64,000 nucleotides of DNA, from NCBI RefSeq assembly GCF_000585395.1, contig NZ_KK073875.1, positions 248,001 to 312,000 on the forward strand. The letters are read 5' to 3'. Below the pieces are notes generated by a model. It did not search any database. It saw only the letters and a list, made by a program, of their open reading frames with translations, and had not been told where the DNA came from. Source of the DNA: Saccharibacillus sacchari DSM 19268. GTDB taxonomy: Bacteria; Bacillota; Bacilli; Paenibacillales; Paenibacillaceae. Shown one piece after another: positions 9,548 to 51,549 of the stretch (the stretch's first letter is position 1; each line of letters opens with the position of its first letter). A program made the position numbers and the translations under genes.

Positions 9548-9621
9548 AGGCAGTCCGAATATCATTTTTCTGCTTTTTTCGCAAATCCAGTTTATATCAG
9601 GATTTGGAAAAGGTTTTCGTA

Positions 9622-9718
9622 CTTTGTCAACGTTAAAAGTAAGGTTACGCCCGTCTGAAACCCACCTAAAGCGTGCGTGTTTCAGCCAAACGTAATCCTC
9701 TGATTAAGAGTTGAAAGG
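9622..9718. repeat. Palindromic repeat family 1, copy 1
   Basis: 96-nt imperfect palindrome, mostly identical to the copy at 50438-50533, with the loop core ACCTAAAGCGTG and stems GGTTACGCC.../...ACGTAATCC. The right end AGAGTTGAAAG departs from the GTTGACAAG of copy 2, and another end-like CCTTGTCAACTCT follows at 9728-9740. It lies in the 409-base gap between abrB and the GNAT gene. Confidence 0.85.
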
Positions 9719-9751
9719 GTACCCGTACCTTGTCAACTCTAGCTGATTTCA

Positions 9752-49643: not shown

Positions 49644-50267
49644 TTAGCGACGGCGTTTGGCGCGGACGGCTTTTATCCCGATGAACGCCGCAATCAGCAG
49701 GGCGAAAAAGCCGCCGAATCCCCACAGAATGAAGGAAGCCCCGGGCGGCGTTCCCCAGTCTCCGCTAGGGGTTCCGGGGGAAGAGCCTGCAAGAAGTTCA
49801 ATAGGTTCGCCTAATTTTTTCACGGCTGCGGGATCGGTCGTCCCCTGATAAGCTTCGTTGCCGGAGCACAATGTGGTAGTAGGCATTCCGTTGCCTTGCT
49901 TGGCAAACACCAAATATTTTTCTCCCTGCACGAATTCCATGCCGCAAGATGCGGAAAATGCCGCACTATAAAGCGTCGTCGTTTCGTAAACTTCGCCTTT
50001 CCAGGCTTGATCGACTTCGAACACGTAATATACCGGATCGGCGCTTGAACGAAGGCCGCTTAAATCGGGCGGCGTTTCTCGCCGTTCCGCGACGGTTCCG
50101 GCAAAAATGCGGTCCGCATAAGCCATGGAGCTGTTCGTATCCGACATCGCGCAGCTGCATGCGATAGCCGGTTTTGCAGCAATCGTAAGCCCGGCTCCCA
50201 ACGTCGTAACGGTGATCATTAAGATCAGCAGCAAAGACAGGACTCCTCGGCGTCTGCTGGCGTGCAT
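49644..50267 (-). CDS. TIMP-like (netrin/NTR fold) secreted membrane-anchored protein
   Basis: 207 residues from the ATG at 50267 with GGAGGG 8 bases upstream. Signal peptide ending near AIACSCA; the mature start CSC, AYADRIFAGTVAERRE and YYVFEVDQAWKGE are the pattern of bacterial tissue-inhibitor-of-metalloproteinase-like proteins. More cysteines (SASCG, TLCSG) probably form disulfides. A C-terminal helix (ILWGFGGFFALLIAAFIGI) and a basic tail anchor it. Function in bacteria unknown. Confidence 0.8.
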   Translation of the reverse strand: MHASRRRGVLSLLLILMITVTTLGAGLTIAAKPAIACSCAMSDTNSSMAYADRIFAGTVAERRETPPDLSGLRSSADPVYYVFEVDQAWKGEVYETTTLYSAAFSASCGMEFVQGEKYLVFAKQGNGMPTTTLCSGNEAYQGTTDPAAVKKLGEPIELLAGSSPGTPSGDWGTPPGASFILWGFGGFFALLIAAFIGIKAVRAKRRR

Positions 50268-50437
50268 AACGGGTTCCCTCCTCGATCTTTTTCTCATTAC
50301 TTTCTAAGCGCAAAAAGAAGGACGCAAGTTGCGTCCTCCCGAAATTTGTTGCTTGTTCGATTACCACAAAGAGGCGAGATAAGTACGGACATAGTCCGGG
50401 TCTCGATACAATTGATCGCTGTTCAACACGCTAGCAC

Positions 50438-50533
50438 CTTGTCAACGCTAAAAGTAAGGTTACGCCTGGCTGAAACACACCTAAAGCGTGTGTATTTCAG
50501 CCAAGCGTAATCCTCTGATTAAGAGTTGACAAG
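50438..50533. repeat. Palindromic repeat family 1, copy 2 (inserted in a gene)
   Basis: 96 nt: CTTGTCAACGCT at one end and AGAGTTGACAAG at the other, inner arms GGTTACGCC-TGGCTGAAA and TTTCAGCCA-AGCGTAATCC, loop CACACCTAAAGCGTGTG. It is flanked by CTAGCA on both sides (50431-50436 and 50537-50542), a likely 6-bp target duplication. Confidence 0.9.
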
Positions 50534-51027
50534 CTACTAGCATCTTCCGTATTCCATAAGTTGAAAGTTCGAAGTTCATACACGCTGCCCTCTTCGATCG
50601 TGCGCCTACCGTTAATGATGATTCGGCCGTATTGCCCTTTTCCCAATACAAAAGCCAACTCATCAAGCAGACCGCTTCGATCATCCGTGCGAACCGGCTT
50701 TCCGAACGATGGATCATAGCCGAAACGCACCGCTATATATTCTGCATGCCGCTGCGGCAACAAACCAGGAAGTTTTGCATGTCCGATCTTAATGTCGGCA
50801 GCAGGCATAGGCAGCCATTCGCAGGTGTCGTCCATCTGCTCGATTCCTTTTACCGTTTGATGGAAAATAAGCCGATGCATCAGTATCCGCTCTTTTTCCA
50901 GTGGATAAGGATTCGTCGGGATTGCTGCAGGAAGAGGAAAAGCAGCAGGTTGACGAGTACGCAAAGACGCATAAGGCTCGCCGCGTGTATTTTTCATCCA
51001 GCGGATCAATACGGTTTGTACGATCAT
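50497..51027 (-). CDS. Unknown protein, C-terminus replaced by repeat insertion
   Basis: 176 residues as it stands; the last about 12 (SLSTLNQRITLG) are encoded by the repeat. Removing the repeat and one CTAGCA restores an open frame that continues through VLNSDQLYRDPDYVRTYLA to a TAA at 50361-50363, so the ancestral protein had about 187 residues. The body (e.g. FGYDPSFGKPVRTDDRSGLLDELAF) was not assigned to a family. The start lies 4 bases after the VanZ stop. It may still work without its tail. Confidence 0.75.
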   Translation of the reverse strand: MIVQTVLIRWMKNTRGEPYASLRTRQPAAFPLPAAIPTNPYPLEKERILMHRLIFHQTVKGIEQMDDTCEWLPMPAADIKIGHAKLPGLLPQRHAEYIAVRFGYDPSFGKPVRTDDRSGLLDELAFVLGKGQYGRIIINGRRTIEEGSVYELRTFNLWNTEDASSLSTLNQRITLG

Positions 51028-51030
51028 ATC

Positions 51031-51549
51031 TTATCTCCTCCGCTCTTGGCCTGAGCGGCTGCGGGCATTGGCGGAACGGGTTCTTGCATGTGCGCGCCCG
51101 TTCCTTTTTTGCTCGGGACCGGCAATCAACCGATAGCCGATGTAACCAAGGCTTGCGCCGATACTGTTCAGGATTACATCGTCGACATCGGCAACTCCTG
51201 CTCCAAGCACGCCTTGTGCCAGTTCCAGAATCACGATGAATAACAGAAAACGAGTCAAAAACCCGAAGTAGTTCCGGCATTTTCCGAAAAGTATCGGAAA
51301 CAACACCCCGAACGGAACAAATACCGCCACATTACCCGCCAAATTAATCAGCGGAGCCCGCAGATTATCCCAGCTTGCCGAACGGGCGAACAACTGAATG
51401 GTCTCGAACGGTACGATGTTATAACGAAAATCGCCGCTAATATGAGCCGAACGGCCGAAGCCCCAGAACATCCAATAGAGCAGCAGCCCTCCGTAACCCA
51501 GCAAGACCAGGCCGGCCAACACTTTAACGACGATTACTTTGGCTTTCAT
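51031..51549 (-). CDS. VanZ family protein
   Basis: 172 residues with four to five membrane segments. The VanZ pattern NIVPFETI, LINLAGNVAVFVPFG, LELAQ and DVDDVILNSIGASLGYIGY is clear. VanZ-type proteins are linked to glycopeptide (teicoplanin) resistance, but most copies, like this one without vanHAX, have unknown roles. The C-terminal tail is strongly basic (RARTRSANARSRSG type). Cotranscribed with the gene at 50497. Confidence 0.9.
   Translation of the reverse strand: MKAKVIVVKVLAGLVLLGYGGLLLYWMFWGFGRSAHISGDFRYNIVPFETIQLFARSASWDNLRAPLINLAGNVAVFVPFGVLFPILFGKCRNYFGFLTRFLLFIVILELAQGVLGAGVADVDDVILNSIGASLGYIGYRLIAGPEQKRNGRAHARTRSANARSRSGQERRR

Follow-up and report, generated by a model that had tools for sequence, protein, structure and literature searches.

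A MITE-like element of Saccharibacillus has very probably cut off and replaced the end of a bacterial gene before the split of two species

In a stretch of 64,000 nucleotides from Saccharibacillus sacchari DSM 19268 (contig NZ_KK073875.1, positions 248,001 to 312,000 of the forward strand; hereafter the window), a 102-bp MITE of the genus has very probably inserted at a CTAG site in a protein-coding gene, duplicating 4 bp and cutting off the gene's last 22 codons. The grounds for this reading are observations of several kinds, namely unlinked copies of the element, conserved ends, a 4-bp duplication across the family, sites filled in one species and empty in the other, an insertion shared between species, a cut-off tail that matches those of homologues, and purifying selection. 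We refer to the following features, with positions counted along the window:

50435..50536, no strand assigned: MITE-like element, 102 bp, placed by a flank-identity test over 92 copies, by the genome copies and by its fold; the family's terminal inverted repeats have the consensus TACCTTGTCAAC...GTTGACAAGGTA
50431..50434, no strand assigned: left copy of the target duplication, CTAG, 4 bp; TCAG at this place in S. endophyticus
50537..50540, no strand assigned: right copy of the target duplication, CTAG, 4 bp; identical in S. endophyticus
50497..51027, minus strand: interrupted gene in its present form, an open reading frame (ORF) of 176 aa, from the ORF call and homologues
within that ORF, minus strand: last 12 residues SLSTLNQRITLG and the stop codon at 50497-50499, derived from the element
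50361..50429, minus strand: cut-off former 3' end, encoding VLNSDQLYRDPDYVRTYLASLW and a stop; the tails of the three closest homologues match it
9615..9724, plus strand: the window's second member of the element family, intergenic by gene prediction

At the core of the element lies a near-perfect palindrome of 96 nt (50438-50533), which splits the 3' end of the minus-strand gene and is present, as read directly from the sequence, just as a preliminary description had it. The same description placed CTAGCA on both sides, and both 6-mers are there (50431-50436 and 50537-50542), but neither abuts the palindrome, from which they are separated by 1 and 3 bases, respectively. Since the two CTAGCA copies lie 106 bp apart, the insert shifts the reading frame. 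The present minus-strand ORF enters the repeat and terminates inside it, ending in SLSTLNQRITLG, so that the protein has indeed been given the short, element-encoded tail proposed for it.

The insertion point lies directly ahead of the stretch that encoded the old protein's final 22 residues. Reading the frame past the insert leads from NTEDAS into VLNSDQLYRDPDYVRTYLASLW and a stop at 50361-50363, which confirms that the old frame can be recovered, in frame, as far as that stop; the tail string first given for it had the correct frame and stop but omitted the final SLW. Searched up to E 1, Pfam gave no match to the product of the interrupted gene; NCBIfam gave a single weak one, under its cut-off. 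As for the neighbours, 51031-51549 encodes a VanZ-like family protein (1.8e-22), and 49644-50297 has a weak match to the TIMP family, under its cut-off.

Homologues of the interrupted gene were found at E <= 1e-3 in 8 of 59 genomes, its own included, and at 18 loci among the named genomes. In a pairwise tail test, made post hoc after a profile test and on 6 chosen of the 17 named homologues excluding S. endophyticus, the three closest homologues apart from S. endophyticus, all with an uninterrupted frame, matched the cut-off tail better than shuffled tails: P. hunanensis (ending in LRSSPDYQYKQMASLW and a stop, p 0.0006), Saccharibacillus sp. O23 (KEPDKRREWLESLW and a stop, p 0.0002) and S. alkalitolerans (REPDRRCDWLEPLW and a stop, p 0.010). 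For the more distant CPCC 101409, S. qingshengii and P. tyrfis, the match was non-significant (p 0.18, 0.64 and 0.60). The profile, built from 14 homologues with P. hunanensis not included, did not distinguish the old tail from its shuffled versions, scoring 147.0 bits for the joined frame and 146.1 for the present ORF against a mean of 146.4 and a maximum of 151.3 in the shuffles. Judged from these alignments, the ancestral frame appears well supported by the near relatives and not by the distant ones. The expectation that orthologues would carry the old tail was borne out by the three closest uninterrupted homologues and found no significant support in the three more distant ones.

S. endophyticus carries the same element at the same site, with 1 difference in the 96-mer, an identical right CTAG and a left 4-mer TCAG (left 6-mer TCAGCA), and its orthologue has the same new tail. 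As the insertion is common to S. sacchari and S. endophyticus, it predates their split, across which the gene-body dS is 0.19; the description of the insertion as recent does not hold, since S. endophyticus has it at the same site. An orthologue ending in SLSTLNQRITLG had been named beforehand as evidence against the insertion, and S. endophyticus literally supplies one, but it does so because it shares the insertion. An unusual conservation of the element between the two species (1 change in 96) was considered and dropped, as other shared copies have changed, by eye, about as much as their flanks.

Between these two insertion-bearing genomes, dN/dS is 0.18 over the 163-codon gene body (19.5 synonymous and 12.5 non-synonymous changes). 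Because both carry the insertion, this value argues that the protein with its new tail has been constrained, at least much of the time, and we infer that the protein with 12 new residues still works. The cut-off tail has 3 changes in 69 bases between the species, too few to judge constraint. In S. endophyticus, the interrupted gene has a TGA stop at codon 10, a tryptophan codon in S. sacchari, with the remainder conserved; this stop is perhaps bypassed by a start just downstream, or it may be the first step of decay in a gene that is dying in this species. The codon-10 stop, together with the matches in only 8 of the 59 genomes, would fit an interrupted gene that is a pseudogene and a new tail of no consequence, a reading that we hold possible, though on balance unlikely, in view of the gene-body dN/dS of 0.18 measured across two insertion-bearing genomes.

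The MITE explanation draws much of its force from the other copies of the element. In the 6,075,237-bp genome, the 96-mer matched at E <= 1e-3 in at least 41 places including this copy (of the 42 matches, one on the reverse strand duplicates another of these places, which leaves this copy and 40 more); the count scored 40 of 109 first-look candidates, so that the genome probably contains more copies. Allowing at most one mismatch, a 15-base end pattern occurred at least 59 + 64 times, against 1 + 6 for the reversed pattern. The profile search of the window returned two copies, this one and the one at 9615-9724. With so many places, and with no room for a transposase gene in a 102-bp stem, the earlier proposal of a non-autonomous repeat inserted in a gene is borne out.

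Element matches were present in 9 of 16 Saccharibacillus genomes, and a family-wide draw of 295 genomes matched the same 9 and 0 of 279 outside the genus. Plasmid and phage sequences held no match at E <= 1e-3, and an 18-base end pattern matched viral contigs 7 times, each time singly, which is judged by estimate to be chance. As far as searched, the element family is confined to the genus Saccharibacillus. By title, and largely outside subscription papers, the literature on Saccharibacillus repeats and transposition and on Paenibacillus miniature inverted-repeats showed no such family.

By a rough gene call, 15 of 21 profile hits in the stretches compared between S. sacchari and S. endophyticus lie between predicted genes, and 6 of the 21 rows (4 sites, two of them in both genomes) overlap a predicted ORF, at 151538/154163, 392032/150987, 298430 and 77603. 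The element is 102 bp long in 69 of 92 copies; some are far shorter, at 43 bp between the ends or about 22 bp, and have apparently lost the stem between short direct repeats. The remnants of about 22 bp (e.g. TACCTTGTCAACGCTAAAGGTA; loci L136, L137, L143, L144 and L145) have 4-mers on both sides and look like a stem deletion between AGGTA repeats. A longer copy of 139 bp (locus L205, 3312-3450) is flanked by CTCT on both sides, a duplication other than CTAG. At S. sacchari 392032-392232, two family-like elements of divergent types stand side by side, and this arrangement is common to S. endophyticus.

The stem itself is more stable than chance would give. As minus-strand RNA, a 110-nt stretch is predicted to fold at -64.4 kcal/mol (z -12.5), and as plus-strand RNA at -47.5 kcal/mol (z -7.6), with folds as good in 0 of 200 shuffles in either case. 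Across 81 full-length copies, 26 of the 40 stem pairs carry changes in both arms, where shuffling gives a mean of 11.6 and a maximum of 18, cells changed on both sides number 158 against 41 in shuffles (max 59), and 92% of the stem cells are paired against 86% when shuffled, comparisons that flatter the covariation because the copies are related. Counted in the orientation of the gene's sense strand at this site, GU-type cells outnumber AC-type cells by 301 to 94 of 3240, or by 144 to 94 once the commonest state of every pair is left out, hinting at RNA-level constraint or at a mutational strand bias. Template switching in quasi-palindromes matches arms without selection, and the matching of the arms may reflect selection on the hairpin or mutual correction of the palindrome arms. 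A search against Rfam returned microRNA-family matches only, far under their cut-offs.

The covarying arms, the stronger minus-strand fold and the excess of GU-type over AC-type cells could mean that the element is kept for a working RNA hairpin (e.g. a 3'-end stabiliser or terminator), with the gene fusion a side effect. We consider this improbable, because kinship of the copies inflates the covariation counts, template switching could match the arms without selection, and the sites differ between sister species. Still less probable, in our estimate, is a genus-restricted hairpin moved by a transposase family new to MITEs, one giving 4-bp CTAG-like duplications, in which an RNA function at transcript 3' ends would keep the stem paired, so that insertions in gene ends would be tolerated or favoured as ready-made protein ends.

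For the MITE explanation, the length of the target duplication was derived from the family as a whole. In 38 aligned copies, conservation extends 3 bp past the palindrome and the flanks are CTAG-like, with (C)TAGTAC before CTTGTCAAC and GTACTA(G) after GTTGACAAG in the consensus. CTAG is its own reverse complement, so one copy cannot separate a target duplication from an inverted repeat. We compared left/right flank identity within copies with that of randomly dealt flanks, over 72 length/offset combinations and 2000 shuffles, in 92 copies with distinct flanks, this one included (105 before similar flanks were dropped); the end patterns were picked by the analyst from copies already seen. The best of the 72 combinations was 4 bp at offset 3, with a mean identity of 0.652 against 0.555 (z 6.0), and all four bases were equal in 21 of the 92 copies against 9.4 by shuffling (p 0.0005, the lowest value that 2000 shuffles can return). 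The remaining 71 of 92, which have no identical flanking 4-mers, count against the MITE explanation.

Within the 4-mer, the outer positions have z values of 5.8 and 4.6 and the inner two, mostly TA, of -0.4 and 1.8, while the bases just outside show no left-right association (z -0.3 and 0.0). The next-best placements, 8 bp (z 5.3) and 6 bp (z 5.2), enclose the same 4-mer in a longer span and match fully in 0 of 92 copies. CTAG is the commonest 4-mer: 42 of the 92 copies have it on one or both sides, with 23 occurrences at the left flank and 29 at the right. The element is TAC...GTA with a duplicated CTAG-like 4-bp target. A target duplication therefore exists, as had been claimed, but the flank test gives it 4 bp and not 6; the CA after the left CTAG is the element's own first two bases, and its match in the right flank is by chance. 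A 6-bp duplication (CTAGCA) from a recent insertion has in its favour the CTAGCA flanks on both sides in S. sacchari and is nevertheless very improbable, as the positions beyond CTAG are unassociated between left and right over the 92 copies (z 0.0 and -0.7), the symmetric 6-bp placement (k6 b2) owes its z to containing the 4-mer, and the left 6-mer differs in S. endophyticus despite the shared insertion.

Movement of the family was assessed by comparing 452 kb of S. sacchari with 400 kb of S. endophyticus, about 361 kb of which lay in alignments longer than 1.5 kb. Among the 10 S. sacchari profile hits, 5 are filled in both species (148951, 151538, 298430, 392032 and 392159), 2 are present in S. 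endophyticus in altered form (156192 and 156320), 2 are missing from it (422600, and 257615, whose site is occupied by other sequence) and for 1 (428171) no position could be assigned. S. endophyticus has 11 hits: the same 5 shared ones, 1 partly retained in S. sacchari (118925, second piece) and 5 absent there (46640, 125706, 134843 and 144795 in the first piece, 77603 in the second). The cleanest pair is S. endophyticus 144795, with CCAG on both sides of the filled site and a single CCAG at the empty one. Against the explanation we count 125706, which has GTAG on both sides yet an empty site unlike the prediction, and 46640, whose flanking 4-mers are unlike (TTTA/CTAG); the empty sites for 422600, 134843 and 77603 showed no clear single copy of the duplication. 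These filled/empty differences indicate that copies have been gained by movement, or lost, after the two species separated, and that some are older than the split.

A prokaryotic MITE is described in a review (PMC10969869) as having terminal inverted repeats of about 4-30 bp and a length of less than 500 bp. Such elements are also flanked by a target duplication, at least when young, and share their ends with the autonomous element that supplies the transposase. The present element is 102 bp long with conserved ends, has a 4-bp target duplication (21 of 92 exact against 9.4, and the clean CCAG pair), and is multicopy and interspersed, without a transposase of its own, at no fewer than the 41 places counted. 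The search for a transposase with the element's ends, which covered DDE_5, DDE_Tnp_1, rve, DDE_Tnp_1_4, Y1_Tnp and PF13546, found none. DDE_5 was detected in 0 of 1 genomes (its own) and in 0 of 16 genus genomes, and neither 20 end-like stretches of the own genome nor 20 of relatives yielded an autonomous partner among the matches listed.

Transposase loci were checked for DDE_Tnp_1 (29), rve (21) and DDE_Tnp_1_4 (2), a total of 52, two of which are DDE_Tnp_1 places again. With up to 3 mismatches allowed per end, 7 loose end pairs turned up at 5 loci, each pair differing at 4 to 6 of its 24 bases and lacking equal outside 4-mers. A control motif, the ends read backwards, gave 32 pairs at 12 loci, so that the pairs are attributable to chance. 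At one of these 5 loci, L211, the right-hand end resembles an end of a family copy that adjoins the gene there, with no convincing left partner. A MITE of a DDE_Tnp_1 or rve element was thus rejected, no transposase at these loci being bordered by the same ends with equal 4-mers, as was an IS701-derived MITE, PF13546 being found in 0 of 16 genus genomes. Two loci of the own genome, L206 and L214, encode a DDE_Tnp_1 transposase of 393 aa; the inverted repeats of L206 are about 19 bp long, start with TTCACTGAATTTCTC and are unlike the ends of the 102-bp element.

REPIN/RAYT repeats are palindromic, high-copy and non-coding, as is the 102-bp element, and the Y1 transposase mechanism is not expected to give a 4-bp target duplication. 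Mobilization of a REP/REPIN-type palindrome by a Y1 (RAYT) transposase would accord with the high copy number, the palindrome and the mostly intergenic positions, but is highly unlikely here, as Y1_Tnp was matched at E <= 1e-3 in 0 of the 9 element-bearing genomes (two hits fell in an element-free genome) and the element has a target duplication that misfits this mechanism.

Under the MITE explanation, a DDE-type transposase would act in trans on the 102-bp non-autonomous element, which would have entered the CTAG site ahead of the codons for the last 22 residues. Repair would have duplicated 4 bp at the target, and translation would now enter the stem and stop there, leaving 12 new residues. 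Among known systems, RUP and Correia/NEMIS duplicate TA; the 102-bp element differs from them in its 4-bp CTAG-like duplication and in having no known partner transposase. RUP (Streptococcus pneumoniae) and Correia/NEMIS (Neisseria) are likewise short. Like MITEs in general (PMC10969869), they have terminal inverted repeats and many copies, are mostly intergenic but sometimes within genes, and are presumed to be moved in trans. ERIC/RU-1 and the Rickettsia palindromic elements (RPE) are likewise small repeats found in coding regions and fused to host ORFs (PMC2759123 and PMC10969869), but RPEs are described as in-frame inserts, whereas the 102-bp element causes a frameshift and terminates the protein. 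IS701-family elements duplicate 4 bp (PMC2266710), as the 102-bp element does, although the end consensus in that paper does not match the element base for base.

The present case, in which a MITE very probably truncated and re-tailed a gene, is well supported, and its mechanism is a known one (PMC10969869). For palindromic families, it carries a lesson, in that a frequent CTAG target mimics the palindrome and a lone copy cannot give the duplication length, because CTAG is its own reverse complement. It also documents, at the level of sequence and against a species tree, a bacterial protein whose end was rewritten by a small mobile repeat; the target, its duplication and the former tail can all be seen, and a sister species shares the insertion.
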